This document shows positions 21,925-64,000 of a stretch of DNA of 64,000 nt, piece by piece. The DNA is from Cyrtodaria siliqua (taxonomy: Eukaryota; Mollusca; Bivalvia; Adapedonta; Hiatellidae), in the NCBI GenBank assembly GCA_037043455.1, contig JAWPHD010005082.1, forward strand, positions 1 to 64,000, given 5' to 3'. The first letter of the stretch is position 1. Every line of letters begins with the position of its first letter. The notes below the pieces were generated by a model. That model saw only the letters and a program-made list of their open reading frames with translations, searched no databases and was not told where the DNA came from. Position numbers and translations under genes: made by a program.

Positions 21925-22285
21925 AAAGAAGAAATAGAGAAACTTAAAAATGATGCTCAAAATGAGCATTTCGATGACTCTTCAACGCCTTTATTAGCAA
22001 GACACGTTTCAGTTATGATCGACGAATCTGTGGAAGATGAAATCATTTGTAAAGAAAGTTCAGCTACCCCGTACTCGCCAAAATTTGAGAGAGAAAGACA
22101 TTCTAGTAAACATAAACCAGATAGATTTGAAAGCAATCTAAGTGCAATTAAACGTTCTTATACAACTGATAAACTTCTTGGCACAATGCATATAACAGGG
22201 GCGTCGTCCTTTGTAGGATTCAATAGTGAGCAAGGGAGGGAAAAGAGCCCTGAAACGACCATTGACAGTGTTAACAAAAGACAAG
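21925..22285 (+). CDS. Kinase-KEN gene, exon A
   Basis: 361 nt between an acceptor (ttcattccag) and a donor (ACAAG|gtaaac), phase 0 to 1. It encodes about 120 residues. It starts with a charged helical KEEIEKLK, followed by Ser/Glu/Lys-rich, probably disordered sequence (DESVEDEI, FERERHSSKHKPDRF). Near residues 79-86 is YTTDKLLG, echoing YHTDKLLG at the start of the kinase domain in the 62764 exon, but no glycine loop follows. No membrane segment and no domain I recognise. The next exon completes its split codon (G+TT) and stays open. Confidence 0.75.
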
Positions 22286-22693
22286 GTAAACTCTTAGTTA
22301 TCATCATTATGATTTAATATTTTTATTACATTTGAATAGAAAAAAGAACGTAATTTTCTACAAAAGATTGTGAGAATTTGCCTTCTGCTTAAACCAACGT
22401 TCACTTGCCATGCTATTTATAAATTGTAGCAACTTTGGATATTTCTCCTTATAAGGAAAATATAGTTAATTTCTCCATACTTTTTTGTAGTAATAAATTA
22501 CACGTATGCACGACTAAAAATGTATTATATCAACTGAATTAACCTTAATTTTTTTTAAAAATCAAACTCTTAGGCATCCACAACAATATATAAAACTGTT
22601 TTTTAACAAATTAAAGGAGAAGTTTATACACAGTTTAAATTGTGATACAGCGTATGTATAGCATTAGTTTGAGTATTGCGGAGTATGTTTTAG

Positions 22694-22827
22694 TTGATAT
22701 GGATCATATGTTACCGGTTACTGTTTCGTCCTTTTTAGAATCTAGCAAAAGTATAGTGGAATTTTCGCCCACTCCACAAAGACTAATGGAAGACATTTGC
22801 CGAGAGCAGAAAGGAGCCGATTTGAAG
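22694..22827 (+). CDS. Kinase-KEN gene, exon B
   Basis: 134 nt, acceptor tatgttttag, donor TTGAAG|gtaact, phase 1 to 0. It encodes about 45 residues (LPVTVSSFLESSKSIVEFS, PTPQRLMEDICREQKG) with no recognised domain. The exon starts TTGATATGG, and the split valine codon with exon A keeps the frame. The upstream ATG at 22642 falls in the intron and is not needed as a start. Confidence 0.7.
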
Positions 22828-22939
22828 GTAACTATATACTCTGTGTACAGTTCTCTTACGTTTTTTGATGAACGTTTACTTTATAGTATGATCAGCAATA
22901 TAAATATTATCAAAATACATATTAATTTAATTATACAAA

Positions 22940-23155
22940 CTTTCATGAGAGGTAAAATAAGGTGCAACACCACTCATGCCCCAGCACCGGCTAAGCAGTA
23001 TTCGTAACAGTAGTTCTAAATGTTATAATGAAGAAATCAGAGCTTAACAGTTTGTACCACGAGAGAGAAACGGAATTGTACTATTTAAAATGACATTAAC
23101 TTACACTAGCAATTAAACAAAACGTACATATTGAACGTGGTCTTAAGTGTGTGTG

Positions 23156-23187
<32 letters not shown>

Positions 23188-24745
23188 TGCTTGCGTGCGT
23201 GCGTTCGTGCATGTGTGTATGTCCTTGTAGTGTGTGTGTGTGTGTGTGTGTGATACGGAAAAGAGGATTCCTTGGAAGCAAGAAACTCAAACAAGAGAGA
23301 AAAGTAGCATACGTGGATTTATTGACTCTGTTCCTGAGACGTAATATAAGTTGCAGCACAATCTCTCGAGCCCTAACACCGACTTAAGCGGTATTCACTA
23401 CTTTAAAGCCACACAGAGTGAGTGGGCTAGAATATCCCAAAGGACCAGTAAGTAATACAATTACTGATTCGTTGTCGGGTTGACTTTCTAAAGCCGCCAC
23501 ACATCACTAGATGAACACTAGTGTGATTGTCAATACATATTGAGAAGTGGATACCTTGGAAACAACGAATACATTCAATTGAGAAAAGTAGAAGACTCTG
23601 TTTTATTAAGTCTTTTAATGAACTGTAATTTAATAAATATCGAAAAAGTGATCCCTTGGAAGCAACAAACACAAACAAGAGAGAAAAGTAGCAGACTCGG
23701 TTTCATTGAGTACTTATAATATGAAACACGTCTCACGCCTCTAAGTTGCAACACTTTACACGCTATACATATCACCGCCTTAAGAGGTATTCTACTTTAA
23801 AAGCATAATGATTGGTCTCGAAGATGGAATGCAACAGTAAGTAATTACATTACTGTTTATTAGACGGGGAGACTTTTTACAACTGCCACAAATCACGAAA
23901 CAAACGCTAGTATGAATGTCAATAAATACTGAAAAAATATACCTTGCAAGCAAAGAACCCAAGCGTAAGAGAAACATTTTATTGAGTATGTTAAATAAAT
24001 ACTGTGATCCTTTGGAAGCAAAAACACAAACAAGAGAGAAAAGTAGCAGACTCGGTTGTATTAAGTCTGTTCGTGAGAGGTAATTATAAGATGCAACACC
24101 TCTCACGCCTCCTAGCACCGGATTAAGCGAAATTCTACTTTAAAGCAATACATAATGGGCTTGATGATCCCAAAGGACCAGTAAATAATAACACTACTGA
24201 TTTGTAGTCGGGGTGACATTTTACGGCCGCCACACAGCACTAAACAAAGGCTAAGGTGAATGTCAATAAATACTAAAAGAGTGATCTCATGGAAACAACA
24301 AACACAAATAAGATAAAAGTAGCAGACTCGGTTTTATTGAGTCTGTTCATGAGAGGTAATTATAAGATGCAACACCTCTCACCTCATAGCACCGGCTTAA
24401 GCGATATTCTACTTTAAAAGGAAAACAGAATGGGCTTGATGATCCCAAAGAATCAGTAAAAATAACACTACTGATTTGTAGTCGGGGCGACTTTTAAAAG
24501 CTGCCACACAGACTACACAAACGCTAGTGTGAATGTCAATAAATACTGAAAGGGTGATCCCTTGGAAGCAACAAACACAAACAAGAGAGAAAAGTAGCAG
24601 ATTCGGTTTTATTGAGTCTGTTCATGAGAGGTAATTATACGATGCAACACCTCTCACGCCTCTTAGCACCGACTTAAGCGATATTCTATTTTAAAGCAAC
24701 ACAGAATGAGCTTGATGATCCCAAAGGACCAGTAAGTTGCAATAT
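22940..24745. repeat. Structured ~300-bp tandem repeat array
   Basis: About six diverged units. Landmarks per unit are 'ggaagcaacaaacacaaa', 'gagagaaaagtagcagactc', two consecutive hairpins, 'ctagcaccgg', 'cccaaaggaccagtaa', 'gtagtcggg' and 'aatgtcaataaatact'. Hairpin 1 is CAGACTC/GAGTCTG (for example 24323-24345). Hairpin 2 is TGAGAGGT/ACCTCTCA (for example 24350-24381), and reaches 10 bp at 24072-24107. A dispersed relative at 35940-36525 keeps both stems with compensatory changes. The minus-strand open frames here are repeat by-products. The array lies within the intron between exons B and C. Confidence 0.8.
23146..23252. repeat. (GT)n / (GTGC)n microsatellite
   Basis: Two GT runs (about 23147-23169 and 23230-23252) separated by a gtgcgtgc tract. 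The open frames on both strands are artefacts. Confidence 0.9.
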
Positions 24746-25807
24746 CTCTTGCACCGGCTTATGTACTATTAGTGTTCATTAAATTATTAATATTTATTGA
24801 TTTCTAGAACTTCTTCAACTAATCTGTTTAAATTTTGTCCTAATCTGAAAGAAATAGGGTTTTATAAAACAAGTTTCCTTAAGCACGGGCTGCACAATTG
24901 CGATCCATCTTTACGCCAAGGATGTATTTTTTGCAATTCAATATGTTTTTGTTTTCTTTTTCTTTTGGTATTTTTGCTAGTTTGTGTTTTAAGTAAAACA
25001 TCCTAATATTTTGATTTGCTTCGTGTTGTTTTGTTCTTAATTTTGACTTGCAAGCATGAGTTTAAATATCCATAAACCACTGATTTTAGAAAAAAATACA
25101 TTCTTGAACAAATGTTAAATCTATGTTTTTAAACAAGACGGGATAACTTTTTTTTCCATTTTCCAAACAAAAAGAGTTTGACTTATATATCTGTATTATC
25201 AGATAAACTAAACTATCAGTTGTCTGTGGTTCTTTCTGAAACCGAAATGCTTATCGGGAAAATTGAAGAAAAAAAACTTTTACGCTACTTTCTATTAGCT
25301 TACCTTTTCATGGAAACTGGACAACAATAAACGTTTTCGAAGTATTGAACTGTCAAGTGATGATTTTATAAATAGGCTAAAACTGAGAAATTATTTAGAA
25401 TACAAGCCCAGTTTCTATCATACGTCTAACGATCGATATATTCAGCAACGTCGTGATACAGTAAAGTTTAATGAATTAAAAATATAAAACAGGTTTGCGG
25501 GTATATTCAACATTTCATTTCTAAAATAGTGTTTTGTATTGTTCCATCATTCCCTGGAATGTTATAAAAATGCGCCTACAAAACCAATGTAATATTTTCC
25601 CTGACATCATTGTAACTATAACAAGGGTAGCTCCGTCTATCAAACAGGTACAGGTTGTACAAGTTGCCTCTCTTTAGTTGCTGCATACGCAAAATCTCGA
25701 TCACTTTTTTAAGCACACCTGGATTATATCTAAAATGAATCCGATTTTACCGTATGCATTCCTCAAGTATGCTAACTATCTCCTGAGTTTTGAATTACTT
25801 TCTTCAG
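24746..25807. other. Intronic sequence, no feature
   Basis: Intron between exons B and C. A 69-codon frame at 24797-25006 is not splice-bounded and has no known motif. Confidence 0.4.
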
Positions 25808-26102
25808 AAAAACAAAAGAGTGGACATAATACAAGATACGGGTGAAAATACAAATGCAAAAAAGGCGCCTTTAAACACCAATAGGACAAGGGCTTCGACG
25901 TTTTCCGGATTCACCGACCACCATAAGGTCCTACAGAAAAGGTCTTCGTCGTGTTCAGAATTCACCAACAGTTCTATCATCAGCAAACCAAGTGCTCCGT
26001 CGATTTCACGAATCACCGACCATAAAACCATCGTTGATGTTAAGGAAACCGATAAGCTTACACATTCTAAAACAAAGGACGAAATAGAAGATCATCCAGA
26101 CG
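25808..26102 (+). CDS. Kinase-KEN gene, exon C (Ser/Thr-rich, internal repeats)
   Basis: 295 nt, acceptor actttcttcag, donor CAGACG|gtaatg, phase 0 to 1. It encodes about 98 residues, rich in Ser, Thr and Lys. Three degenerate ~17-residue repeats are visible: STFSGFTDHHKVLQK, SSSCSEFTNSSIISK and APSISRITDHKTIVD. They are followed by an acidic/lysine tail (KTKDEIEDHPDG). Such sequence suggests a flexible, phosphorylatable linker, but no family is recognised. The downstream exon at 41099 completes the codon (G+AT). Confidence 0.75.
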
Positions 26103-27229
26103 GTAATGTTTTCATTTTATCTCAAACAAATATATATATACATACATAAGACCTGCATATGGACAGGTTTCATTCTAGTATTCATCGTCGTATTTTGCCC
26201 GCCGTCCCCACATAGGTCATTTTGTTAACGTTTACTTAACGACATCGTCAACAAAATTAGAACATACTGATTCAAATTAACTTTTTCAATGGTTTTGGGA
26301 TAATGGCTTTTTTAATTTGTAAAGAATAAGTAAAGCTGACATTCAGGCACATTTAATAAAAGTATCTAGAACATTTAAAAGCTAGTTCTTCTCCAAACGA
26401 GTATACAATGTGGACAGCATTTTTTTGTTTTCAAAAAATTAGCCCTAGGCTATCAAGTTTAAACAAATAAAGTTCCAGTGTTGAAAAATGATGGCCATCG
26501 GGAGGTTACATCTTATAAACACTTTTTTTCTGTCGGCCTTTATTATTTATTTACTACAAATACATGTTACAATGTCTGTCAAAGACTATTGATTAATATT
26601 TACCTATTTTAAATTTATAAACTAAACCAGTATACAACTCATACGGATGTGAGCTTGGGCGTTAGCAGAACTTTTTCTGAAACCGCTTAACCGATGTTGC
26701 CAAACTGTTATAGAGATGTTACTTTATGCTTGAGTACCTTACATTCCGTATTATAATTGATCGCTAGGCACCAAACTATAAAGTTTGTACGTTTTGTCTC
26801 CCCGATGTGAAACATATCTCCGCGCCGGTGGTCCCAATTTGTTAGAGATATATAGAGATTTTACATGTTTAACATGGATTTATACTTGAAGGTCAAAGGC
26901 GTTAGCAGCACTTTCTCGGAAATAACTTTGTAAATGTTACTGAAATTTCACATGGATGGTTCTGATACAGAACGGATTGTATTGGTTAAACAGACATTTA
27001 AGATTTTCGCTGTTACTAAGATTATTCGAAAGAATACGAAACTGTTATTTTAAGAACCGCACCATAGATAGTGGTAATTCCTTTTTAGACTGGATAGCTA
27101 GATAATAATCTATCAAGTTTGTGTTTCGCCTTGACCCTGGTTAAACAGAAGTGGACAAAGAAGGCATGTATCACTCTACTGGCTTTATGGAGTCTGTGGT
27201 TTGGGTTAGGTGGTGAGTAAATTAGTTGT
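26103..27229. other. Intronic sequence with a weak repeat pair
   Basis: No gene. Blocks at about 26655-26715 and 26895-26960 share 'gcgttagcag' followed by 'actttctcgg/actttttctg' and 'aatgtt', suggesting a degenerate ~240-bp repeat. Confidence 0.4.
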
Positions 27230-29060
27230 TGTAGCACTTATAACAAAACTCTTTACCATGCACTGAGCAAAATGGCAGTCGAATATATAAATAACTGCAA
27301 GTTCCCCAAGTTGTACCCCTGTAGAGGGGCTCCTTTACACGTGTTATATATGTTGTACCTCAAGTCTCTAAATGACCATTGCAAATTAGAATTAAATGCA
27401 TTCACGTTTGGACAAGAAATGCATCTTTTTTACCTGATTATCCCATAGGGATGGAGCCAAAAACGAATCATTTATTATGCATCTGCACATTCGTAACTAA
27501 GAAATACACCTCAAATGAGCTTGAAATCTCAAAGATAGAGGGAGTTAACGTCACAAGGCGGACATTTCGTAATAGTAAATAACTGCGAGTTCCCCATGTT
27601 TTACCCCTGTAGTGGGGCGCTTTATGCCTTTATGCAGGAGGTGAAACCCGCTTTATATACTCCCTAAATGACCATACCAATGTAGAATCAAATGCATTCA
27701 CAATTGGAGACGATATGCGTTTTTAGGTGTGTGTGTGTTTGCTGGATTACCCACTAGGGTATCCCAGTGGATGGAGCCAAAATATCAAATCTTATTGCGC
27801 ATCTACACATCCTTAACTAAGAAACACCACACATGAACTTGATATCTCAAAGGGTATAGAAGACGTTAGCGTCACAGGGCAGAAACTATGTAATAATACA
27901 TTCCAGTAAGTTCCCCCAAGTTGTAAGCCTGTAGAGGGGATGCTTTATGCAGGAGGAGGTCAAAACCCGTTTTATATAGTATGTTGTGCCTCGAGTCATT
28001 CAATGACCAAACAAAACAGGAATCATAACCATTCACATTCGGACAATATATGCATTTGTGTGGCTTTTGACACGATTACCCCCTAGCCAAAGTGGGTGAA
28101 GACAAAATCGATGACGATATTGTGCATCTACACATCCTAACAAAGAAAAACACCGTACAAGAACATGAAATCTCAAAGAGTATAGAAGGAGTAAGTGGCA
28201 TAAGGCCGAAACTCTGAATAGTAAATTACTGCAAGCTCCCTCAAAGTTGTACCACTATAAAGGGGCCCCTTCACACACAAGGACAAACCCCATTTTATAA
28301 ATATTGGGTTATAAATGGTGTGCCTCGAGTCCCTAAATGATCATACCAAATTAGAATCTAATACATTCCCCACTGGACAAGATGCTATTTGTTGTGTTTT
28401 TTTAACCTGATTTCCCTCTGTTGAGCCCCCGAGGATGGAGCCAAGATATGAACACTTATTGCGCATCTACAAATCCTTAACTAAGAAATACACCAACATG
28501 AACTTGAAATCTCAAATGGTATGGAAGGAATTAACTTCACAATCCCGAGACTCGTAAAAGTAAATTACTGCAAGTTCCCGATGTTTTACTCATGTAGAGG
28601 GGGCCCTTTACGCTGGAGGTCCAACTCGGGTCCCTAAATGACCATACCAAAATAGAATCGTAACCATTCACATCTACACAAGGTGAGTATATTTCTTTGT
28701 TTTTTTACCCGATTAACCCGCCAGGGAGCCCCATTTGCAAGAGCCAAAATCCAAAACATTATTGCGAATTTACACACCCTAACTAAGAAATAAATCACAC
28801 AGAACTTGAGATCTCAAAGGGTATACAAGGAGTTACCGTCACAAGGCTGGAACTCTCTCATAGGCAATTACTGCAAGCTCCCCAAATTCTACCCCTGTAG
28901 AGCGACACCGATATACAGGAGGAAACAACTCGTTTCGCATTTCTTGTGCATAGAGTCCATAAATGATCATTTAAAATTAGAATCAAATTCATACACATTT
29001 GGACAAGATATGTTTTTTTTCTGATTTTGACCCAATTACACCCGAGGGGGCTCCAGTCGG
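27230..29060 (+). repeat. Tandem repeat array, ~325-bp unit
   Basis: About six copies. Each carries 'actgcaagttcccc', 'acccctgtagaggggc', 'cctcgagtccctaaatgaccat', 'ttcacatttggaca', 'gaacttgaaatctcaaagg' and 'aggagttaacgtcacaagg'. Starts are near 27292, 27580, 27903, 28229, 28570 and 28867. The same unit occurs in the opposite orientation at 59880-61080 and as a fragment near 49490. Non-coding. Confidence 0.8.
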
Positions 29061-29129
29061 CGGAGACAAAATCTGAGAAATTGCTGAACACCATTGCGTC
29101 ATAAAATTAAAACAAAATGTTAAACCACA

Positions 29130-29146
29130 GTGGGATTTGAACCCAC
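29130..29146 (-). other. Perfect tRNA T-arm / B-box module
   Basis: The reverse complement is GTGGG-TTCAAAT-CCCAC. It sits between the 325-bp array and a fragment of the ~160-bp unit (29190-29265), the same neighbourhood order as in the hairpin-ended elements. Confidence 0.6.
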
Positions 29147-29271
29147 ACCGCAGGTTCTCAATATAGCATATTGCATATTTAAGAAAATTAATGGTCATAA
29201 GTCTAGTGTTACTGGTCCGATCCGGCTGGTTTTCGACCTTGTCCCAGCTTTCATTGATATTAACAATCAGG

Positions 29272-30372
29272 CAATGGAGAGACCCGCTTTTGTGTAGGTG
29301 AAGTTCCTTTTCAGTCAGGCGTGGATTTGGCAATGCATTCGCGCTGAGTAATAGTGCGGAAAGTCTTTTCCTTTTAAAGGACAAGGTGACCTTGACCTTT
29401 GACTTGCCGACCCAAAAATCAATAGGTTCCTTGACTATTGACAGAAAAGAATAGGATTCATTGTCTCACCAGGAGCAATGTAGCTATGAATTTGTATATG
29501 GGTAACAATAATGGTTTCAAAGTTATCGTTCGGAATGCTTAATAGTTTCAAAGGTCAAGGTTTGAGGTTTGACTTAGCAACCGGACAGTGTTTTCTTTCA
29601 AAGTTAACGTCCGGAATATTCTACAAGGTTCTAAAGGTCAATGTCACCTTGGCCTTTGACCTAGAGACCCCTAAAAGAATATAGGCCTGGGTCTCACCAT
29701 AAGAAACAATATTGTGGAGTTTCAAGAGCTTTAGTAGAAAAATGGTTAAGAAATGATGCGTTTTGCTTTCAAAGGTCACGGTGCCCTTTGACATACTGAC
29801 CGAAAATATAAAGTTCCTTGTCTCACTAGGATCAATGTAGCTATAACGTTTTATATGGGTGAAGCAAATAGTTTCATAATTATCATCCAGAATGCATAAT
29901 TGTTTCAAATATCAAGGTGACCTTGACCTATGACCTAACTACCAAACTTTCAAAGGTCTAGGTCACCAATATTGGGAGTTTGACATACATGAAACAGGAG
30001 CGTAAATGTTGTTGAAAATAAACAAATACTGTACAAAATTTCATAAAACCGTCTCTATCATGTTACTAGATAAACGTTTCCGTTCAGTGTTTTAAGTATT
30101 TTTATAAGCTTATGTCTGACAGTCGTCGGCTGTATATTCTTATAATGTAAGTCACCGCCTGCGTGTGTTTATGATGATTGCAGTCACTTCCTTGTTTACC
30201 ATTATCAGCAGTTTGCCATATACTAAAGGACAAAAGAAACTCTGTATTAATAATCAAATATGTTGACGGTTGCATCAAAATATATTGACGTGCATTTAAC
30301 TAAAAACTATAATTTTAATTCAGTACATAGTATTTAAGTCTCCTATTAATATTCCTCTATTTTTGTCTGAAT
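29272..30372 (+). repeat. Long inverted repeat, left copy ('aggtcaaggt' family)
   Basis: About 1.1 kb matching the reverse complement of 44071-45019 over its whole length. Outer end 'caatggagagacccgctt', inner end 'ctctatttttgtctgaat'. It contains several ~190-bp subunits with 'caaggtgaccttgacctttgac', one more than the right copy. No protein. Confidence 0.8.
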
Positions 30373-30390
30373 CTGATTATATCAGATTAT

Positions 30391-31556
30391 TCATATTATT
30401 TTGGCTCTTGTAGTTTCAGAGAAGAAGATTTGTTTGTGCTCCCCCCCCCTCCCGCAACCCATCCACCATAAAAGTCTATGTAAAACAGTGAACCACGGGG
30501 CGGGGTCACCATTTGAAAAAACTTGGTAAAGGCCCATTATCTTATAGTAAATAAAAAATATTAAACCTCTGGCTCTTGCAGTTTCCGAGAAGATTATTTT
30601 CCTATATAAGACTATGTAAAACTGTGATCCCCCGGGTGGGACCAAATTTGACACCAGGGTCACCATTTGAACGAACTTGGTAGAGGACCATAAGCTTATA
30701 GCAAAAGCAAAATATTAAACCTCTGGCTCTTGCAGGTCCAGAGAAGAAGATTTTTTCAGTTTTTCCCTATACAAGCCTATGTAAAACTGTGACCCATGGG
30801 CGGGGCCAAATGTGTCCCCAGATAAGTCTATGTAAAACTTTGACACCCGGGGCTGGGTGTCCATTTGAATTTTTTTTGTAAAGGACCATAATCTTATAGT
30901 AAATGAAAAATATTAAACCTCTGGCTCTTGCAGTTTCAGAGAAGATTTTTTCCTTATATAAGTCTATGTAAAACTGTGATCCCTCGGAGCGGGGCCAAAT
31001 TTGACACCAGGGTCACCATTTGAACAAACTTGGTAGATGACCATAAGCTTATAGCAAATGCAAAATATTAAACTTCTGACTCTTGCAGTTCCAGAGAAGT
31101 AGAATTTTTCTGTTTTTCCTATACAAGCCTATGTAAAAATGTGACCCCCGAGGCGGGGCCAACTGTGACCCCAGGGTCATCATTTGAACAAACTTGGTAA
31201 AGGACCATAATCTCATAGTAAATGCAAAATATTAAACCTCTGGCTCTTGCAGTTTCAGAGAAGATTTTTTCCCTATATAAGTCTATGTAAAACTGTGATC
31301 CCCCGGAGCGGGGCCAAATTTGACACCAGGGTCACCATTTGAACAAACTTGGTAGATGACCATAAGCTTATAGCAAATGCAAAATATTAAACCTCTGACT
31401 CTTGCAGTTCCAGAGAAGTAGATTTTTTCAGTTTTTCCTGTACAAGCCTATGTAAAAATGTGACCCCCGAGGCGGGGCCAACTGTAACCCCAGGGTCATC
31501 ATTTGAACAAACTTGGTAAAGGACCATAATCTCATAGTAAATGCAAAATATTATCT
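30391..31556 (+). repeat. Tandem repeat array, ~160-170-bp unit with a dimeric higher-order period
   Basis: About seven copies containing 'tctggctcttgcagtttcag', 'tctatgtaaaactgtgac', 'ggggccaaatttgacacc' and 'catttgaacaaacttggta'. From about 30905 two unit types alternate, and a dimer of about 315 bp is nearly repeated (about 30925-31240 and 31240-31555), implying recent duplication. The same unit occurs at 16290-16830 and in fragments near 10030 and 51350. Minus-strand frames here are not genes. Confidence 0.8.
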
Positions 31557-32737
31557 GGCCAAAACAGACATCAAACACCACTGAACCAAAACCTTGCTAT
31601 GGTTTGCGTATCTCCGTTTGATGCAGACGTTTCTCACACAGTTTGTTGAAACCCCATCAGGTGATAATAGAGAACTAGTGCATGGGACATTTGTTGCGTG
31701 AATTTTTTTAAATATTTAAACGGCCCTAGCAGAATTTATCGAACGAAAGCGGTGGAAAATAAAAAAGGGTTATGAAGGAATTAGAAGCGCAGAAAAGATG
31801 TATAAAAATATTTAAAGGGGCGTAACTCTGCCATAAATCATTGAGCCGCAGCAACACAAATGTAATGCGTATCTCCACATCATACCGACACTTTTGCCGA
31901 GATATTTTGGAACTTAAATTGAAGGTGCTATAACCTCGAGTTTGCGTACACATCAAAAGTAAGTTAAAATAGTATGCTTTAATATTAACCTATAGGGTAT
32001 CAATATTTCCATATCATATGCATACTGCATTCTGCTTAATTAGTGCTTATAATTTAAAGTTGAGTTGCACAATATTAAAAACGTTTTACAAATTGTATTT
32101 AATTGAATGCAATTTAATTTTTAAAAATTGTCCGGACTGAAGTTTTTAAAAAGGACAGAACGAATACATATTGGAGTCTGTGACTCAGTCTCTGGCTGTT
32201 TCCTGTTAACTGGGGTTCCAAAGAAGCTAGATCGCGTTGCATTGCGAGACAAAATTCCGAAATGCTACATACACCACGACTATCATGCATAGAATAAGAA
32301 TAAGTAATAAAAGCCACTTCATTCTAAAATTGTACCAATATTTTCAGTAATCGCACCTTTGTATTTACTATTGTTTCATTTTGATAGAACAATCAAACAT
32401 AATTTCATAAAATAACACTGTTAGACTAGATGATTAATCCGAGCCTTGTCTGAACGTACCAGCCCTTTTTTACGATTTTGATATTTCTTCTGGCCGTGTC
32501 CTCAATAATCCTTTGATGGAAGTTCACAAACTTTTATAAGATGCATCAGTATGAAGTGGAATTTTTCATATCTTGGTAAACATGACACGTTCCGGTCCAA
32601 TGATTATTGACCGTTGATTATATTCACACAAATTATTGTCCAAACTACATGTGTATTCCTCCATATCTCCATGATGGACTTCATGAAACAATTAGAAGCA
32701 TCAGACAGTTTGAAGTGGAGACGTGCGATATGTCTAG
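31557..32737. other. Intronic, no gene
   Basis: AT-rich sequence. At 32430-32505 there is a partial copy of the terminal repeat of the next element ('taatccgagcctt', 'accagcccttttttacgat'). Confidence 0.45.
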
Positions 32738-34050
32738 TTAATCCCAGCCTTCTCTGACCTTGCAAGCCCTTTTTTACGATTTTGATATTTTTTCTAGTTG
32801 TCTGCAGTCAGAGGAACTCCTATAGTAAAAACTGGGGATCGCTCGAGGGAGCTACCAACAGTATCTACGGCGTCGTGTCAATTAGATGAACTTATTATTT
32901 AATGATTTATATTCCCAGCTGCAGTGATAAAACTGCATATTTATTAATTGTATTATGTTTTGAAGAACGAAATATTCCCAATGAATATCCTATACAACTT
33001 TAGTAAGCTTCATAAAACACATATTTTGGTTCAAAGAGGTAAATAAATATATTGATTGATACTGATACTGGTTTGCTAAATGTAACCGAACAGAAAATAG
33101 TGTTTATTGTAATGTTTCTTGTTATTTGATATAATTCAAAGAAAAAACAACTACATGTAACAGAGCAGAAATAAGTTCACTTCAATGTTAAAAATGTCAA
33201 CATCCGATAACAAGCTCGCGCACGCGCTGTTAAGAGGGACTCTCAAAGGGTAGTCAATAAGAATTGATTGACAGCTGTACAGAAGTAGTAGTCGAATTGC
33301 TAAAACAAAACGCATCAATCTTGATCATTATCCCTATTCGACGCCCCATTCCGTAAGAAAGACGTTTATGACCGAACAATATTAACGAGATGTCAATTGA
33401 AAATACCTGCATCTCCAGTATAATCATATCTGACCGATCAATGTTTTACTGCAGTATTGTATTTTGCCAGTATTGTGTATGCCTATATGTTATATAAACA
33501 GGGTTATATATATAAATTGGGTTTTTCGTTATTATCGTCTGCTGCCGTCATCTTGGGAAACATTGTTTAAATACTGGAAAACAATTTAAAAAATATAACT
33601 GCGCATGCATGGTAAGCGCAAGACTTCCCCATGCCGACTCAAAATAAAGTTCATCTTATATTATGCCTAAATTTGCGGGGAAATTAGTGCTGGGCAGAAA
33701 AGCATCTATATTTCGGTATATATTTACTTTTTCGTATACGACGATTCGTCTGATGATGACAATTTTATCATTTTAATAAATTAAACTGATATTTTGTCGT
33801 TTGTTTACGGAAACTCAGATACTACTTGCATACCAGTGACAGTTTGTGATCCATGAAATTTTAATTCAGTGCATATTTACCTTGATATCTTGTCTTAAAA
33901 TCAAGCAGGTGGGCCGTGGCTCATTGTTATTCTCTCTAGCAGGTGAGGAAATCCCCGTGTTTTTACTATAGGAGTTTCTCTGACCGTACACAGCCAGAAG
34001 AAATATGTCTTTAAAAAAGGGCTGGTACGGTCAGAGAAGGCTCGGATTAG
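32738..34050. mobile_element. Non-autonomous element with ~100-bp terminal inverted repeats
   Basis: The left arm at 32738-32839 (taatcccagccttctctgacc ... cctatagtaaaaac) is the inverted partner of 33951-34050 (gtttttactatagg ... ggtcagagaaggctcggatta). The 1.1-kb interior has no transposase. A solo partial arm lies just upstream at 32430-32505. Confidence 0.65.
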
Positions 34051-34062
34051 CAGAATGAATAG

Positions 34063-34512
34063 AGATCAGACTACACCAATTACCAACCAATCATCGGGCA
34101 GGGAAAAGGTTCCAGGGTAAATTCGGAGCTATTACACTGAATCTCTTAATTTTGATTGGTTGTCAAGATAAACAAACAAAACAAATCTTGCTAAAAAAAT
34201 AAAATTCAACTTTTGAAGAGTACTTATAAAGGTTAAATCATACATTTGTGCAATGTATTCATAATGTGTTGCATAATCAAAAAAAGAAGTATATTTTACA
34301 TTTTCCTCATGTTTCTACATGCAAGTAGGTGGGTCAGCACCATCCGACCCAAACAACTTGTTCAAAACATACTCTGTATGTTTTTTTGATAAAACTAAGA
34401 TAGGTCTTTCAAAACAAGTAATAAAAATATAGCTTCCTGTATTAGGGAACTCAGTACAGAGCTTAGAGCTATAAAGTAGGCCTATGGAAAATGAATTGGT
34501 GTAATATGACCT
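34063..34512. mobile_element. MITE, copy 1
   Basis: About 450 bp beginning agatcagactacaccaatta and ending gaattggtgtaatatgacct. These ends are inverted repeats, about 17 of 19 matching in the best copy. Related copies lie at 54393-54708 (internally deleted) and 55940-56400. A minus-strand frame of 89 codons inside it is not conserved between copies and is not a gene. Confidence 0.65.
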
Positions 34513-35454
34513 AGTGCAATACCGGGTTATATCGGACACCTTCGGGAATTTTCTTATATACGCACCGTTAGAAAAACAATACAAGGATAAACTCGGTTGT
34601 TACTATTGTTACGGTTCCATTCCAATGTGCTATACTACGAATACGTTCCGCAAATGTATTTTAATCGAGTTAACACGTGTTTGAAGTAATAAACCATCGG
34701 CTGGGGAGTATCGGACAGTCAGCGGGTTGTATCGGACATCAAAAAAGGGTTCATCGGACATGCATTTTTCAACTAATATGAAGTCATTTAATGTGTTAAT
34801 AACAAATAAACATGATTACCAGCTAGGTAGTAGGTATTTTATTAGTAAATGAGAATAATTGCGTCAGAAATACACAGCCTCCGATGCTATGAACAAAACA
34901 TGAATTGCGTATAACATGTTCTTATACAGTTACGATAATTTTAAAATGACGCAAATGCTTAAAGGTACATATAATGTGTACCTTCACCTTCTTACCACAA
35001 ATGTTAGCCCAACGACAAGAAAGGAGTAACGTGCTTAACAACTTTTCTATTAACATGCACCTACTCGGAGGCCAGTTGTCTTTAATAAACAAATCGCAAA
35101 AAGAAGATAAGCGCATGTTGATCTTCTCTGATTTCAGAACTGTAATTGTCACCATCATGGTTCAATACTTTATAAACTATATTCTTATGAAACAGGTGTG
35201 CTGCAAATAATGTTAGTAAATGCGGCCCATATACAAGTACAAGCATTTAATGCACAAGGGTAAGATCTTCCCTTAATACATTAATAAACACCAAGGCCTA
35301 GTCTACCGTGAAATAGATTTGCCATATTATTTTGAAGTACATGCCTTTTGAATTTAGTAAATTGCAACTGAGTTTCTCATGACGCGGGACAGTTTACAAA
35401 ATCTTACGGTCGCTATTTGTTTTGTTTTTTTGTGTGCGTTTTTTTTTTCTACAG
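34513..35454. other. Intronic, no supported gene
   Basis: Contains a recurring tatcggaca motif (about 34530, 34709, 34733, 34752; inverted near 35880) of unknown meaning. Overlapping frames on both strands at 34922-35210 have protein-like stretches but no recognised motif or consistent splice borders. Confidence 0.35.
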
Positions 35455-35532
35455 CGAAACCGTTGTGTACACTGAATTAGTCCCAGGTCAACACCCATCA
35501 TTATGTGAATTATCAGAGGCCCGTGAATTGAT
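35455..35532 (+). CDS. Orphan candidate exon with strong splice sites
   Basis: 78 nt preceded by a long T-tract acceptor (ttttttctacag) and followed by gtaagt. Only the phase-2 frame is open (ETVVYTELVPGQHPSLCEL...), giving a 26-codon symmetric exon. It cannot be used between exons C and D1 of the kinase-KEN gene, because that junction is phase 1 and phase 1 meets a stop here. It could be an exon of another or nested transcript, or chance. No family recognised. Confidence 0.3.
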
Positions 35533-35939
35533 GTAAGTTAGGGTTTAGTTAGAATTGAAGGATTGTACATTTAACTTATTTTAGAAGCGTAACGGTCTAG
35601 TTTTTACAAGTAGCGATCGTTGTTATGCACCGCGACATGTGCGATCATGTTTATACGGATCGCGCGCTGTGACGATCCTTATTGATCGCTTCTGGTAAAG
35701 TAGCGAGGGAAATGTTAATATTGTAAATATTATGTATTGTAAATATTATTTAGGGCTAGATTTCCATCGCTAATTTATTAGATCTAGAAACGATACGGTT
35801 ATTATTTTCTAGGCAAAATTACCCGCACATCTCTATTCAACACGAACATTAATGTCATAGTATCAGGTGAGATTTCTGTCCGATACAACCCAATGTGAAA
35901 AAAGTATGATAATGGACCTATGGAAACGGCCGAGCACGT

Positions 35940-36525
35940 CACATACGAAATATTGCAGTCTCGGTTTGATTGAGACTGTTCATGAGCGGTAGTGAAATAT
36001 GCTGGCTACCGCTCACGCCCTCTAGCCCCGGGTTGAGCAGAACCCAATATTCATAAGATCAACAGTACACAATTTTAACCATCCCAAAGATGGCATGCAT
36101 ACGGCGGTGGACATGGAGTTATATGCTTCCCCATGTCGTACGGCGTATGGTCCCAGTATCTAATAAAATTAAATGCCCCGAAGAGCGAAATAAAAATAAT
36201 GGAATTTAGTTGGGAGCAGCGGTTATGAAGCCTGCGTATCACAAGTAACAGCCAAAAGACTAAATTAAAAAGCAGACAACATATCCTATAAGTGGTTAAA
36301 CAATACTAAGAGCCTTTTATAGGCCGGAGTAGTGGAACCACCGAATCAAAAATTAAGTAAGAAAACAAAAGAAATTGAAAATGTACCACCGATAACTAAA
36401 TGTAAGTATCGGGCTCAGCGATCTCCAAAGATCGAATGAATAACAGTACTGATTGCAAGCGCGGGGAGACGTTTTACTGCCGCCACTCTGCACAAGCAAC
36501 GCCACTGTGCTATAAAAAAAGTTAA
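35940..36525. repeat. Dispersed relative of the structured repeat at 22.9-24.7 kb
   Basis: Two diverged half-units (35950-36130 and 36400-36525). Hairpin 1 is CAGTCTC/GAGACTG (35956-35978). Hairpin 2 is TGAGCGGTAG/CTACCGCTCA (35983-36015). A third hairpin with a CCAA(A) loop occurs as CCATC/GATGG (36079-36093) and CGATCT/AGATCG (36419-36434). Also shared are 'ctctagccccgg', 'gccgccac' and 'cagtactgatt'. Confidence 0.7.
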
Positions 36526-40800: not shown

Positions 40801-40824
40801 CCACTGTCACCCTCACATTTAAAA

Positions 40825-40870
40825 GCAGATGTGCAAATTAGAAGGGGAAAGCAACACAAAGACAATAAAG
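40825..40870 (+). pseudogene. 3' fragment of a third copy of exon D
   Basis: 46 nt matching the end of exon 41601-41738 (ADVQIRRGKQHKDNK against ADLLNRRGKQHKDNK). It retains the same donor (AAAG|gtaact) and about 45 bases of matching intron. The 5' two thirds and the acceptor are missing, replaced by the LINE relic. Without an acceptor it should not be spliced in. Confidence 0.75.
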
Positions 40871-41098
40871 GTAACTGCCGTGTGGTATAACAATCTATGT
40901 ATTCACATTACTGGTTACTGAGGAGCAAGACCTAATATTTCCTGTATACAGAGAAGCTAGAGACCTGGATTGTATGTTACAACATTCTTTGAGGCAAGCT
41001 TAACTTTGACAATTAAAAAGGTGATGATTTTATCTTTGATTGTTTTAACATTTCACACTATATTACAATATATGACGTTTTACTTATATACTTTTTAG

Positions 41099-41236
41099 AT
41101 TCTCAAACTGCTATGGCATGTTCTCAGCATGAAGGCGATCCAGACTCTTTTAGTTCAAGCTCTAAATCTAAAGGTGGTGACGATTCGAAGGCAGATTTAC
41201 AAAACAGAAGAGGAAAGCAACAAATAGACAAGAAAA
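41099..41236 (+). CDS. Kinase-KEN gene, exon D1
   Basis: 138 nt, acceptor tatactttttag, phase 1 to 1, encoding 46 residues rich in Ser and Lys (SQTAMACSQHEGD, SSSSKSKGGDD). It is a tandem duplicate of D2, with aligned length and about 60 bp of similar intron upstream. Its donor is weaker (GAAAA|gtgtgt) than that of D2, and read-through would hit TGA within four codons. Three Glu codons of D2 are Lys here. It may be an optional exon. Confidence 0.65.
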
Positions 41237-41600: not shown

Positions 41601-41738
41601 GTTCTCAAACTGCTCTGGCATGTTCTCAGCATGAAGGCGATCAAGAGTCTCCTATTTCCAGCTCTGAATCTGAGGGTAGTGACGATTCAGAGGCAGATTT
41701 GCTAAACAGAAGGGGAAAGCAACATAAAGACAATAAAG
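41601..41738 (+). CDS. Kinase-KEN gene, exon D2
   Basis: 138 nt, acceptor tatccttttaag, donor ATAAAG|gtaact, phase 1 to 1, 46 residues. An acidic serine cluster (SSSESEGSDDSEAD) has the pattern of casein kinase 2 sites, followed by a basic RRGKQHKDNK end. It joins the exon at 47272 in frame (G+AG). As a phase 1-1 exon it can be added or skipped without changing the frame. Confidence 0.75.
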
Positions 41739-47271: not shown

Positions 47272-47384
47272 AGGATGACGGCAGACAAAGAAGATCAACT
47301 GAGCAACAAAAGCATATTAATAAACTGGATGATGAAGTGATGGATCTGCAGACATCAAACAGCCACTTAGAAAACGCCGAAGAG
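47272..47384 (+). CDS. Kinase-KEN gene, exon E (coiled coil)
   Basis: 113 nt, acceptor ttccatgcag, donor GAAGAG|gtgggt, phase 1 to 0. It encodes about 38 highly charged residues (RQRRSTEQQKHINKLDDEV, MDLQTSNSHLENAEE). The leucine/hydrophobic spacing fits a short coiled coil, which could support dimerisation just upstream of the kinase. That role is inferred. Kinase-KEN enzymes of the IRE1/RNase L class are active as dimers or oligomers. It joins the phase-0 acceptor at 62764. Confidence 0.75.
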
Positions 47385-49378: not shown

Positions 49379-50841
49379 AGAGGCCCTAGTTCTAATTTGG
49401 TATGGTAAGTTACGGACTCGAAATACACAACAATTGTTAAATATGTTTTGACCGCCTGTACGCAGGCAGGCGGTCAAAAACACATTTTATGTAATTGTTG
49501 TGCCTCGAGTCCCTAAATAACCATACTAAATTAGAACTTTGCGTTGTTTTTAGTAAAAACAAATGTCTCCCTTACAGGAGAAGAGACCAAAAATCCACCA
49601 AATATCATTCAGCTGGAACACGTTGGAGGTATAATGTGCAACTGGGCTTGATAATGGTCATCCCTACCAAGTTTCATGGAAATCCATGCAGGGGATCAGG
49701 AGAAGTTGTCGGGACAAAACTTATGTATGCGCAGCTAGGCTTGATACTGATTATCCTTGCCAAGTTGCGTTGAAATCCGCCCAGGGGTTCAGCAAAACTA
49801 GTCCATACAAATTATGTCCATTAATACATTTAAAGGGCCATAACTCTGCCAAAAATCTTTCAACCGGAACACGGTGATACTAGACTTGATACTGATCAAT
49901 CTTGCGAAGTTTCGTTGAAATCCAGCCAAGGGTTCAGGAGAACTAGTCCGGGCAAAGCGTCTGTAGTAAAACATTTAAAGGGCTATAACTCTGCCAAAAT
50001 CATTCAACCAGAACATGGTAACGATAGGCACAACTAGGCTTGTTACTGATCAATCTTGCGAAGTTTCGTTGAAATCCGGCCAGGGGTTCAAAAGAACTAG
50101 TCCATACAAATTATGTGTATTAAAATCTTTAAAGGACCATAACTCCGCCAAAAACCATTCAACCGGAACAAGGTGACGATATGCACAACTAGGCTTGGTA
50201 CTGATCATCCCTGCAAAGTTTTGCTGAAATACGGCAATATGAAGGCCATATCATAAAAATCTGGTAAAGTTTGGTAAAGATCGGATGAAAAATGAAGGTG
50301 CTAGAGTGTTGACATCAAAAAGCAATAAGGTTCAATCTAGTTGGTTTTCGAAATCGTCCAGGCTTTCATTCATATTCAAAATCTGGTAAAGTTTGGTAAA
50401 GATCGGATGAAAAATGGAGGGGCTAAAATGTTGACAAGACAAAATATGGCCATTTTCGTTAATTCAAGGGCAATAACTCCGATGTTACTGATCCGATCTG
50501 GCTAGTTTTCAAACTCATCCGATCTCTCATTGATATAAAGACACTGACAAAGTTGTCTTAAGATCGAATACACAATGAAGGTGCTAGAGTGTAAACAAGG
50601 CTTAAATGGCATTTTCAGCAAAACAAGGGTCATAACACTGGTGTTACTAACCGATCTGGCTGGTTTTCGAACTCTTCCGAGCTTTCATTGATATAAAGAC
50701 ATTGGCAAAGTTTCGTAAAGATCCAATTAATAATGAAGTCTCTATCGCGTAAACAAGACAAAAGTTAACGGACGGATGACGGACGACGGACGGACGACGG
50801 ACACTCGCCATCGCATAAGCTCTACTGGCCGAAGTAGAGCT
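49379..50841 (-). mobile_element. Hairpin-ended modular repeat element, copy 3
   Basis: Begins acaagaggccc (half of the right-end hairpin). It continues with a fragment of the 325-bp unit (49490-49530), about four ~155-bp units ('gaaatccggccaggggttca', 'aactctgccaaaa'; 49620-50240) and about three ~160-bp units ('gttttcgaactc', 'ttggtaaagatcgga'; 50260-50740). A ggacgacggacgg tract (50770-50800) follows, and a terminal hairpin AGCTCTACT-ggccga-AGTAGAGCT (50818-50841) closes it. Read on minus, the module order matches copies 1 and 4. Confidence 0.7.
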
Positions 50842-54708: not shown

Positions 54709-55939
54709 AAAGATAGATTCTGCATAGAGTAAAAGTGAAAGTAGACCTTTTTTTTCTTAATGCAATGATTTGAAAGTGTGAGAAATGTTGAATTATGGTG
54801 TATTTTGACTTTTCTTATAACTCATTTCATGGTTTTTAAATATTTGAAAGTTTTATGATGCAACATAGGTAATTTAAATTCCTTTATTGAGGGTAGTGGA
54901 CACGAAATTAGCCATACCTGACACCTGGTATACAAAATTAGCCTGTTATGCACATGTTTGACTAGTTAAAGGTATATCTAGTAAGTTTTATTCATTTCTG
55001 AGAGCTTTGCATACATTGTTTGGCAAAAATGTCAGAAAGCGACAATCTGCATCTGTCCGAAAAGATGTCGAAAAGCCGCTTTTGTCTGTTTTGAAAAAAA
55101 TGTTGAGGTAAACTCTGACTTTGAGTGCATCGCTTCTATACGGTTAGTGTCGATATGCAAATATGTTATGCGGTTTAATACATTTTACAAATTAAATAAA
55201 TTATTTAGTTGGCAAAAAATATGACCTTTTGTATGTTTTTAAAAAGTTTTTTGCTACCCAACCGCCTTCATTTTAATGAATTTTCATGGATCTGTACTTT
55301 AAACAGTGATTATTGGCTGCATGGTTACATGAAAACGACCTGTAAAGATGGTATAAACAATATCTAATAAAAAAATACAAGAAACAGTACAGTAACAGGC
55401 AATATTGTGTAATGAGCATATTGTAAAACATGGCATGGCCCTAAAAATGGAGTTGGGGAGGATAGTCTCAGAATTTATTTTTTTTCATTTCTAAATTAAA
55501 AAGTTGTATTTTCTTGATGGTTTCACATCTAGAACCTGCTGAATAATGTTAATTAATTCATTTGAAGGCAGATTTTGAATACATACAAAAACAGTGGCTT
55601 TTAATGGTAAAATCTGCTATTTTGACCCCTGAAAATCACAAATATCATTTTTGAGTAGATATTATTTTCAAGATAGCTTCAACTGGTTGAAAATCACATG
55701 TCAATTTAAAATCACTTTATTTGAAGCATAAAACGGTTGTCGAGATATGGCATTTTGAAGATTCTGGATTTAAGCGTAAAAACCGATGGAATTTTGCTTT
55801 AGCCAAAGCTCTTTTAAGCCTCAAATTTTGTCGAAAATGATTTTTTTCTTTAAAAGAATGACATCATTTCTCTCAGATCGAATGTATCAAACAATTTAGC
55901 CAGAAAAAAACAACTTCAGTCAGGTTTGAATGTCTCTTT
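54709..55939. other. Sequence between two MITE copies, no gene
   Basis: AT-rich, no open frame of note. The bracketing MITEs are direct, so a composite origin is possible but unsupported. Confidence 0.35.
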
Positions 55940-58640: not shown

Positions 58641-59760
58641 GTGATGTCATAATTTTACTTTTGTAATTATTGTTTGTTTATGTGCGTCTTTTTGGTTGAA
58701 TGTGGTCCTTGAATGCTACATTTCCTGTTCGAATGTTATATCTACTTTTGGGTTATTTGTCAATGTTATTTCAACAAACTATTCACAGAATATTTTCAGC
58801 GTATACTAGTCTAAGGTTGGAACGTGAAACCTATATTTTCTGGAGCGTTTTTAACTCTACTGGCCAAAGGCCAGCAGAGCTTATGGGATGACGAGTTGTC
58901 CGTCGTCCGCCGTCGTCCGTCGTCGAACGTTAACTTTTGCCTTGTGAGCCCGATATGGCCTTCATTAGTTATCAGATATTTACCAAACTTTAACAGTCTT
59001 TATATCAATGAAAGCTCGGACAATTTCGACAAACTGCTAGATCGAATTAGTTTCACCGGAGTTATGGCCCTTGATTTGCTGAAATATGTCATAATTCTGC
59101 CTTGTGAGCACTCTAGCACCTTCATTTATTATTTGATCCTTACCAAACTTGCACAGATTGTTAATATCAATAACAGATCGGAAATATTCGAAAACCCGCC
59201 AGATCGGTCAGCATCACCAGAGTTATGGCCTTTGATTTGCTGAAAAATGCCATTTTCTGCCTTGTGAACACTCTAGCACCTTCATTTATTATTTGATCTG
59301 TACAAAACGTGCACATATAATTAATATCAATTAAAGCTCAGACAAGTTCAAAAGCCAGCCAGATAGGATGAGTAACTTTAGAGTTATGGCCCTTATTTTG
59401 CTGGAAATGCCATTTTCTGTTTTGTGAACACACTAGCACCTTCATTTATTATTTGATCTTTACCAAACTTTGTCAGTGTTTTTGTATCAATAAAAGCTTG
59501 CAAAAGTTTGAAAGCCATTGAAATTAGATAGGTAAACCAGAGTTATGGCCCTTGTTTTGCTGAAAAGGCCATATTTTGCCTTGAGAACACTCTAGTATAT
59601 CACCTTCATTTATTATTTCATCTTTATGAAATATTGCCAGATTGTTAATATCAATGAAACGTCGCAAAAATTCGTAAACCAGCTTGATCGGCCTAGTTAC
59701 ACCAGACTTATAGCCCTTGATTCTAAAATATGCAATATGTCATATTGGAAACCTGGGGTC

Positions 59761-61128: not shown

Positions 61129-61160
61129 CCCCCCTCCCCCTCCCCCTCCCCCTCCCCCCC
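61129..61160. repeat. (CCCCCT)n tract
   Basis: C-rich hexanucleotide run. The poly-glycine minus-strand frame across it is an artefact. The G-rich complement could form a quadruplex. Confidence 0.8.
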
Positions 61161-62763
61161 AATTCCACAGACACCATACAGCCAGTAGAGCAATACAGGC
61201 CCTCGTGGGTCTCTCGTTTTCTAAGGTATTTGGTTTATTACGTCTCTGGGTGTACGTATGCCTCGTTAAGACAATAGGGCCTTCATTTTTTATCCGATCT
61301 TTACCAAACTTTACCAGATTGTTAATATCAATGAGAGCTCGGACAAGTTCAAACACCAGCCAGATTGGACCATTTACATCGGAGTTGATGGCCCTTGGAT
61401 TTTCTTAAATACGCTATGTTTTGGCCTCATTAAGACGAAAGGGCCTTCATTTTGCCGGATTTCAGTGAAACTTTGCAAGGATGATCAAGAAACAAGCCTA
61501 GTTGTACATATCGTCACCGTGTTCAGGTTGAATGATTTTGGTGATGTTATGGCCTATTAAAGCTTTTAATACACAAACTTTGTCCTGACTAGTTCTCTTG
61601 AAACCCTGGCCGCATTTAAACGAAACCTTTTAGAAATGATCAATGCCATGTCTACACTACTCAAATTTTATAATCGGTCACCCAGGTTTTTTGAAAATAA
61701 CACGAATACTAAAAACTGGAAATCACCGAAACACATACCAATATTTTATTAAGTTTATCAACAAGGTTTTAGTGCAATCAAGGCAGATTAAGTTTTATAA
61801 ATCGCTAGCGATATTTGTTAAACGACGCCAGTTAAAATTTCAAATTAAAAATGAATTATTAAAACATATATAATTCTTTGAAAAGTGACCGATTATAAAA
61901 GTTGAGTAGTGTAGTTGTGCAAATCAACGCTGTGTTCCGGTTGAATGATTTTTGGCAGAATTGTGCACTTTAAAGGTTTTAATACACAAACTTTGTCTGG
62001 ACTAGTTCTCCTGAACCCCTCGCCAGATTTCAACGAAATTTGCAGGGATGATCAGCCCCAAGCCTAGTTGTGCATATCGTCGTCGCGTTTCGGTTGACAG
62101 ATTATTGGCGGAGTAATGTCCCTTTAAAGTTTTTTGATACACAAATATTTTCCGGACTAGTTCTCATGAGCAACTGGCTGGATTTCAACGAAACTTGACA
62201 AGGATGATCAGTATCAAGCCTAGATATGCATATCATTGCCATATTCCGGTTGAATGATTTTTGGCGGAGTTATGACCCTTTAAATGTTTTAATACATAAA
62301 CTTTGTCCAGATATCTCTTCTGAACTCTTGCCGGATTTCAGCAAATCATGGCAGGGATAATCAGTACCAAGCCTAGTTGCACCTTTCGTTGCCATGTTCT
62401 GGTTGAATGCATTTTGACAGAGTTATGACCCCTTAACGTTTTAATACACTAACTTAGTCCAGACTAGTTTTCCTGAACCTCTGGCTGGATTTCAACAACA
62501 CTTGGCAGCGGTGATCAGTACCAAGCCTAGTTGCGTATGTCATCGCCATGTTCCGGTTAAATGATTTTTGAAAGAGTTATAGCCCCTTTTACATAAACTT
62601 TATCTTGAGCCCGTAGAGCGTCCACAGGCCCTCTTGGGCCTCTTCTTAATGTACCATGTACGAAAAGCTTGCATGAGTGCAGTGATATACACAACTACTA
62701 CATGAAAAGATAATGTTCAATATCACGGCAAATTGTGAATGTCTTTTACTTCTTTACTTTCAG

Positions 62764-64000
62764 ATTAATTTACTTGAAACCCGTCGTAATACATGCCGCG
62801 TAGAAGGATCCAATATATACTACCATACGGATAAATTATTGGGAGTTGGATCTGTTTCACAAGTTTTTGAAGGAGCGATGATCTCTAACAGCAAAAGTGG
62901 TTCGCGAGGACTTAAGATAGCCGTAAAACGCATTAATCACGAAAGTAAACTCGATGCATCAAAAATACAAAAAAAGATACAAAAAGTGTATAGAGAAGTA
63001 GAACACCTGCAAAAAGTTGAACCATATCGGAGCATAAACATTGTCGGTTATTATGGATCTTGGATCGATCACCAAGTACTATACATTGCGTTTGAACTTT
63101 GCCAAGGAACATTACGTGATTACGTAAAAGACGAATACATACACATGAGGCAATCATTCAAATCAGTACAAGCTAACCAGTGCATGGCAAATGGCCTCAG
63201 CTTTTTGCATGCACTTGACATAGCGCATCGTGACCTTAAACCTGAAAATATATTGATTGTTCATGACGGGCAACGTATTCGAAAGGTTGTTTTAGCTGAT
63301 TTTGGGTCAGCAAAGGCCACAACAGAAAGTATGTTCTCTTTCACTGGCACATTAGGAACAATAGGCTACATAGCTCCTGAAGCATGGAATATGATTCGTA
63401 AATTGGAAAGCGAATCAGAAATAAATCCATATCTTAATAAAAAAAACGATATATTTTCGTTAGGCGTCTTATTTTATTTTTCTACAACATCGGGAAAGCA
63501 TCCTTATGGAAATCAGATGACGAGTCAAGAGGACATTGCACGTGGGTTACCTCCAGACTTTAGTAAAATAGAAAGTAGCAATGATCCACTACATCAGCTG
63601 TTAGAAAAGATGCTTATAACGGATCCAGTCGGCAGACCAACTTTTGACCAAATATGTAGTCATCCGGCACTATGGCAACCCGCAGACATTTTGGAATTCT
63701 TTGTAAAGAAAAGCGACGCGTTTGAAGCCTTGCTAAAAACCGATCCTTCACAATCGAGAAAATTGCAAAAAACCTACCTGTTACCAAATGGAAATTGGAT
63801 GCGAAAACTTCCCCAAAACCTGGGAAAATATCTGAAGCAGTACACCGTGAACGGCAAGAAGCTGTATGATGGGAAAGGATCAGCTGTACGGTTTCTACTG
63901 CGAGCAATCAGAAATGTCGAAAATCACTGTAGAGATTTTCCGGAAGATGTTCAATCCGAGTTGGGCAGCTATCCAGACGGCCACGCTGACTTCTGGATGA
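62764..64000 (+). CDS. Kinase-KEN endoribonuclease (IRE1/RNase L type), catalytic exon, runs off the window
   Basis: Acceptor ctttactttcag, phase 0, 412 open codons to the window end. Kinase motifs by residue in this exon: glycine loop GVGSVSQVFEG (27-37), IAVKR lysine 55, helix-C glutamate 78 in YREVEHL, hinge IAFELC (108-113), HRDLKPEN (155-162), DFG (179-181), GTIGYIAPE (198-206), DIFSLG (229-234). After HPALW (300-304) a KEN domain follows, with GKGSAVRFLLRAIRN and the R383-N384-x3-H388 signature matching the RNase residues of IRE1 and RNase L. About 20 more residues would be expected beyond the window. All kinase catalytic residues are present. In this family kinase-driven dimerisation activates RNA cleavage. 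No lumenal or ankyrin sensor is visible upstream. Confidence 0.9.
   Translation, partial: MNLLETRRNTCRVEGSNIYYHTDKLLGVGSVSQVFEGAMISNSKSGSRGLKIAVKRINHESKLDASKIQKKIQKVYREVEHLQKVEPYRSINIVGYYGSWIDHQVLYIAFELCQGTLRDYVKDEYIHMRQSFKSVQANQCMANGLSFLHALDIAHRDLKPENILIVHDGQRIRKVVLADFGSAKATTESMFSFTGTLGTIGYIAPEAWNMIRKLESESEINPYLNKKNDIFSLGVLFYFSTTSGKHPYGNQMTSQEDIARGLPPDFSKIESSNDPLHQLLEKMLITDPVGRPTFDQICSHPALWQPADILEFFVKKSDAFEALLKTDPSQSRKLQKTYLLPNGNWMRKLPQNLGKYLKQYTVNGKKLYDGKGSAVRFLLRAIRNVENHCRDFPEDVQSELGSYPDGHADFWM

Follow-up and report, generated by a model that had tools for sequence, protein, structure and literature searches.

Kinase-KEN exon of the window

The window examined here, a stretch of 64,000 nucleotides from the bivalve Cyrtodaria siliqua, is the first 64 kb of contig C5082 in a genome assembly of 2.88 Gb and 26,948 contigs. 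A plus-strand exon at its 3′ end (62764..64000) encodes a protein kinase domain followed by a KEN ribonuclease domain, and the window probably covers the 3′ part of a gene that belongs to an expanded family of IRE1-type kinase-KEN endoribonucleases in which no sensor can be recognised. The textbook examples of kinase-RNases are IRE1 and RNase L, each coupled to a single sensor, and in both the KEN domain is activated through pairing of the kinase domains.

Kinase and KEN are encoded together in a single exon of 429 amino acids (aa), whose stop codon lies just beyond the window edge. An earlier note on this DNA, made from the letters alone, had described such an exon with intact HRD, DFG and R-N-x3-H residues and had proposed checking it with profiles. 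Pfam bears the description out (Pkinase, 8e-43; Ribonuc_2-5A, 1.7e-13), and K, HRD, DFG and R-N-x3-H are all intact. NCBIfam returned bacterial-type kinase models only, Rfam gave 0 matches and 0 tRNAs were found. The acceptor at 62764 ranks at the 99.8th percentile among AGs, and the coding score is −2.4 before it and +5.9 after it; a kinase start at Met 62713 was rejected because of the negative coding score 5′ of this acceptor.

The window protein shares with IRE1 (ERN1), which serves the unfolded protein response, the order kinase then KEN, the intact key residues and the same predicted fold, and is identical to human IRE1 at 111 of 312 aligned residues. In the Protein Data Bank (PDB), the 16 best matches of the whole exon are all IRE1, and the KEN part on its own matches 17 sequences at E ≤ 10, of which 16 are IRE1 and one is portal gp19 (E 0.88). 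RNase L is likewise a kinase-KEN endoribonuclease and has no lumenal domain, but no RNase L chain occurs among those 17 sequences; none appears among the Foldseek and VIA matches listed either, which does not exclude kinship with RNase L. A chimeric kinase was also considered and rejected: the N-lobe alone matches IRE1 best, albeit weakly (0.011), and so does the middle part (1.4e-25), and therefore there is no sign of a second parent. Sequence and predicted fold thus identify the exon as real, and as IRE1-like, not RNase L-like.

An expanded kinase-KEN family

The genome contains 43 KEN matches above the cut-off, and 42 of these loci match the window kinase-KEN protein by blastp. The remaining locus, L033, belongs together with L051 to a multi-exon IRE1-like gene on C9610 that was seen only as kinase and KEN pieces. 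Of the 42 loci, 36, window included, have an open frame of 385 aa or more, the other 35 being 39–75% identical to the window protein. The seven key residues (K, D, N, D; R, N, H) are all kept in 34 of the 36 frames (L048 and L049 are the exceptions), and the HRD Arg in 35. Among 77 pairs with >70% identity, 70 fall within the limits set for dS and have a median dN/dS of 0.55 (range 0.16–1.21); the L025/L021 pair, outside these limits (dS 0.01), has a ratio of 2.15. At the sequence level, the ~40 related loci are an expanded family, most of whose members are open and under constraint.

Of 15 close pairs, 12 share homologous sequence that reaches 68 to 1440 bases 5′ of the frame. On this ground we rejected a retrocopy origin of the family; duplication at the DNA level is therefore likelier. 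The locus L035 (C11287:5000–10000) matches window positions 61261–64000 at 92.6% over 2757 bases, intron included, and its kinase frame is split in two frames; it appears to be either a recent duplicate or the other haplotype.

Architecture and phylogeny of the family

We then compared the architectures of the 36 open frames, allowing a possible upstream exon wherever an acceptor scored above −3. In 14 frames the kinase-KEN unit stands alone, i.e. an in-frame stop is present, no acceptor above −3 lies behind it and a Met is found beside the kinase (for example, MQKVDN). Such minimal members, L037 and L042 among them, leave no room for ankyrin repeats. This suggests that sensor-less kinase-RNases exist as an expanded family, because these 14 frames consist of kinase and KEN alone.

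A tree of 21 of the 36 family frames and 15 other proteins places the 21 members on one side of a branch (support 100/100), in two subclades, and a separate branch (98/93) sets off eight IRE1 rows. The family thus lies outside the IRE1 clade in a tree that was built without the C9610 gene, includes few or no named animal IRE1 rows and has long branches flagged. Seven further sensor-less kinase-KEN proteins group together in a clade of their own (100/100), and an earlier tree with the window protein alone also placed it outside that group. The two subclades agree with the splice evidence: in 10/10 rows of the window subclade the top acceptor between stop and kinase has a score of 1.8 to 5.9, whereas in 11/11 rows of the other subclade it does not exceed 0.1.

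Exons upstream of the kinase

Exon 6 (47272..47384, plus strand, phase 2/0) is proven to lie 5′ of the kinase exon, from which an intron of 15.4 kb separates it in the window. It has three places in the whole 2.88 Gb genome at E ≤ 1, i.e. the window, C17518 and C11958. The latter two copies lie ~0.5 and ~0.9 kb ahead of the kinase paralogs L024 and L029, with AG, GT and phase/frame conserved and an in-frame length change of 9 bp in L029. Among paralogs whose frames are intact, these two are nearest to the window protein (identity 74% and 75%). We assign the kinase exon and exon 6 to one gene because exon 6 recurs only upstream of L024 and L029, with splice sites and phase kept.

Further upstream, a dynamic-programming search over 19001–62763, with home-made splice scores and a codon table taken from the kinase exon alone, gave a best chain of nine phase-consistent, coding-like exons on the plus strand. 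It scores 59.2, whereas the reverse complement reaches 11.3 and none of 60 Markov simulations exceeds 21.9; the six exons that we retained carry ~51 of this score. The earlier note had proposed seven exons on one strand, with consistent phases, leading into the kinase-KEN exon. The phase-consistent chain stands, while at sequence level the sole proven junction in it is that from 47272–47384 to 62764. Three candidates were dropped: 29315–29385 lies entirely inside a window repeat, 36323–36401 lies inside a 623-bp repeat and 55568–55606 (39 bp) is too short to be judged. The 623-bp segment (35898–36520) recurs at 98% identity upstream of the paralog L013 and at 87–94%, in pieces, on C8 (L058); by its sequence it is a dispersed repeat that mimics an exon.

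The five other retained exons, all on the plus strand, are probable exons whose membership in the window gene is unproven: they have coding and splice signals but no linkage to the paralogs. Exon 1 of the visible chain (21925..22285) is the top-scoring upstream exon and is internal, with no Met upstream in its frame. For exon 2 (22739..22827), the acceptor at 22739 (score 1.9) was chosen over an alternative at 22694 (−3.2). Exon 3 (25808..26102) is Ser/Thr-rich, is disordered by charge-hydropathy and was not found near kinase paralogs. Exons 4 (41099..41236) and 5 (41601..41738) are duplicates with 71% aa identity and show no clear constraint (Ka 0.14 and Ks 0.21 by NG86; 0.16 and 0.15 by YN00). 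A partial third copy, comprising the 3′ part and flank (40817..40902, plus strand), matches the exon 5 region at 82.6% across 86 bp and is probably a remnant. Those splice sites of the retained exons that were scored reach at least the 95th percentile, the exception being the discarded acceptor at 22694. A resemblance of 12 residues to exon 1 on C11958 was dropped because it falls within a different open frame.

Two acidic, Ser-rich copies of the exon 4/5 type, very alike, lie at ~984–1112 on C1427 (L057) and, on the reverse strand, on C8 (L058). Exon 5 matches them less closely than it matches exon 4, and the donor is conserved there. They may mark another gene family.

The N-terminal part and the search for a sensor

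For composition and searches, the N-terminal part was taken as 393 residues, with exon 2 in its longer form. The earlier note had described this half as Ser/Thr-rich, acidic, disordered and coiled coil, with neither a lumenal sensor, a transmembrane (TM) helix nor ankyrin repeats. Ser/Thr richness is confirmed (S 14.8%, T 6.6%), but the acidity is mild (D+E 18.6% versus K+R 14.7%). Heptads are significant in the window (6/2000 and 2/2000 shuffles reach the same height), but neither the coiled coil nor the heptad signal of exon 6 is conserved in two paralogs, where 281/2000 and 301/2000 shuffles score as high. The disordered and coiled-coil character as a whole depends on a set of exons in which membership of the gene is proven for the last one only.

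The domain and TM check proposed for the upstream exons returned no Pfam domain and no TM-like segment in the chain, the highest 19-residue Kyte–Doolittle mean being 0.79. The N-terminal part has no relative in Pfam, the PDB or the protein database (5292 candidates, none at E ≤ 10). We also scanned the plus strand with Pfam, reading stops as X, over 1–21924 in three frames and over the intron frames other than 41237–41600, 47385–47759 and the third frame of 41739–47271; the three matches (E 0.0074, 0.069 and 0.19) all fall under the curated cut-offs. Pfam, hydropathy and the exon chain thus reveal no lumenal sensor or TM helix in the chain or in 1–21924, and Pfam no ankyrin repeats in the chain, 1–21924 or the scanned intron frames, of a gene whose 5′ end is missing, as its contig starts at base 1. 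The absence of a sensor is therefore supported for the family, through its 14 minimal frames. The window gene itself is likely sensor-less, to judge from its sequence, but unproven to be so because its contig begins at window base 1.

Comparison with known kinase-KEN and KEN proteins

The window gene differs from IRE1 in that no lumenal or TM part was found, the family forms its own clade, kinase and KEN share a single exon and the copies are many. From RNase L it differs in that no ankyrin repeats were found and its closest PDB sequences are IRE1. Nine database proteins of 380–555 aa (P0004–P0008 and P0010–P0013) resemble it in having little besides kinase and KEN (in P0012 the N-terminal part is longer), but the seven of them in the tree form a clade separate from the window family, and identity to the window protein is 30% for P0004 and 28% for P0012. 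Protein searches with the kinase exon and with a composite including the kinase region found no close relative. Animal IRE1 is not named in the 120 protein matches listed, relatives above ~1400 aa being outside the length range; its absence from the composite search means little because only the candidates sharing most words were scored.

PMC6788458 describes Arabidopsis IRE1C, the product of which lacks a sensor domain and is functional. It resembles the window gene as an IRE1-type gene without a sensor and differs as a plant gene beside IRE1A and IRE1B, compared with ~40 loci in a clade of their own here. PMC3710099 reports lineage-specific expansions in which KEN stands apart from the kinase (Oikopleura, monocots); in some cases it also describes kinase-KEN combined with ankyrin or CCCH. 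The likeness is a KEN expansion within a single lineage; the difference is that kinase and KEN are fused here. Judged by titles and abstract openings, no animal expansion of fused kinase-KEN genes was found in the literature searched. Sensor-less IRE1 and KEN expansions separate from the kinase are thus known; a large animal family of fused kinase-KEN genes, as predicted from sequence, appears to be new.

Competing explanations and proposed mechanism

Several observations weigh against the reading of the window as part of an expanded, sensor-less family. The start of C5082 at window base 1 hides the 5′ end of the gene; an upstream coding exon is possible in 22 of the 36 frames at the threshold used, several of these permitting one solely through weak acceptors; DFG Phe is kept in 30/36 frames, DFG Gly in 34/36 and the KEN Tyr in 26/36; dN/dS reaches 1.21 among the 70 pairs; pairs at 97–98% may be alleles, and the gene number is for that reason an upper estimate; exons of the 4/5 type recur on C1427 and C8, contigs absent from the list of KEN matches; and exons 1–5 were not found in the ~10 kb (C17518) and ~20 kb (C11958) upstream of paralogs.

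The last two of these points also favour a gene in which only 47272–47384 precedes the kinase exon, together with some other first exon or exons, 21925–41738 being a different gene or decaying exons. So do the facts that only exon 6 shows linkage to kinase paralogs (3/3 places) and that exon 1 has no second genomic place below E = 2. Against this, the chain keeps to one strand, its phases fit and it scores far higher than the controls, the step from exon 5 to exon 6 included; beside introns of 15 kb, the stretches inspected upstream of the paralogs are short. We hold this alternative to be a serious one, if less probable than the reading that we favour. An endoplasmic reticulum (ER)-membrane paralog of IRE1, whose lumenal domain and TM helix would lie further 5′ on another contig and whose visible N-terminal part would be a cytosolic linker, seems unlikely to us. 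It would fit the closeness of the kinase-KEN part to IRE1 in the PDB and a window that opens a contig, where 5′ exons may be missing. However, 1–21924 holds no notable chain and no Pfam domain (although short exons may have escaped notice), the sister subclade appears to be kinase-KEN only, separate IRE1-like pieces are present on C9610 and the linker would have to span ~380 aa. Decay is the least probable option, whether of the window copy as a pseudogene or of a family made up mostly of degenerating duplicates: 6 of the 42 matching loci have frames below 385 aa (one of them, L051, an IRE1-like exon), L035, the nearest copy, is divided between two frames and exons 4/5 are without clear constraint, but the 36 open frames, the key residues kept in 34 of them and the median dN/dS of the family make it very improbable, as do the ratios of the window gene itself (0.38 versus L029 and 0.39 versus L024).

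If the window gene is indeed a member of an expanded sensor-less family, it and its relatives would encode cytosolic proteins, activated without a TM helix or sensor through concentration, partners or ligands. A high local concentration or a partner would bring two kinase domains together; the paired kinases would bind nucleotide and trans-autophosphorylate; and the KEN domains would then come together and cleave RNA, as they do in IRE1 and RNase L. Such a dimerization switch is likely here because the key residues and the predicted fold are intact, by analogy with the known enzymes. The N-terminal piece of the window subclade, which is variable and largely disordered, presumably determines the partner, the location or phospho-control. 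The likeliest use would be inducible RNA decay in stress or defence, a role that we infer from the expansion and the moderate constraint; expansion and moderate dN/dS are compatible with a stress or antiviral trigger, and no more.

Other features of the window

Arrays of ~150–165 bp modules occur at 16372–16806, 17131–18546, 30472–31553, 49735–50235, 58959–59722 and 61912–62589, some with GGGCCATAACTC motifs; we take them to resemble the tandem modules of bivalve mobile elements. Two plus-strand open frames (15810–16244 and 18921–19256) resemble, in our view, fragments of a protein-primed DNA polymerase B of the Polinton/Maverick type, an assumption that Pfam does not confirm for either frame, nor phage tblastn or viral contigs for 15810–16244. 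Another plus-strand frame (2395–2943, 182 aa), which has no Pfam match, resembles a retroelement fragment.

Implications

Dozens of intact kinase-KEN genes, many without room for a sensor, raise the questions of what activates them and which RNA they cut, and the family offers natural minimal enzymes for activation studies. More tentatively, and with more doubt than confidence, we suggest that an IRE1 core may have been turned into ~40 free-standing cytosolic kinase-RNases in an animal lineage possibly without RNase L. One subclade would be the bare enzyme, and the other would carry fast-changing N-terminal exons that could link the RNA-cutting switch to different triggers, perhaps including the products of OAS enzymes retained in such animals. 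PMC6307210 reports OAS without RNase L in oyster, limpet and other invertebrates. The host being a mollusc, the family would supply a specific candidate effector for animals that reportedly possess OAS and lack RNase L.
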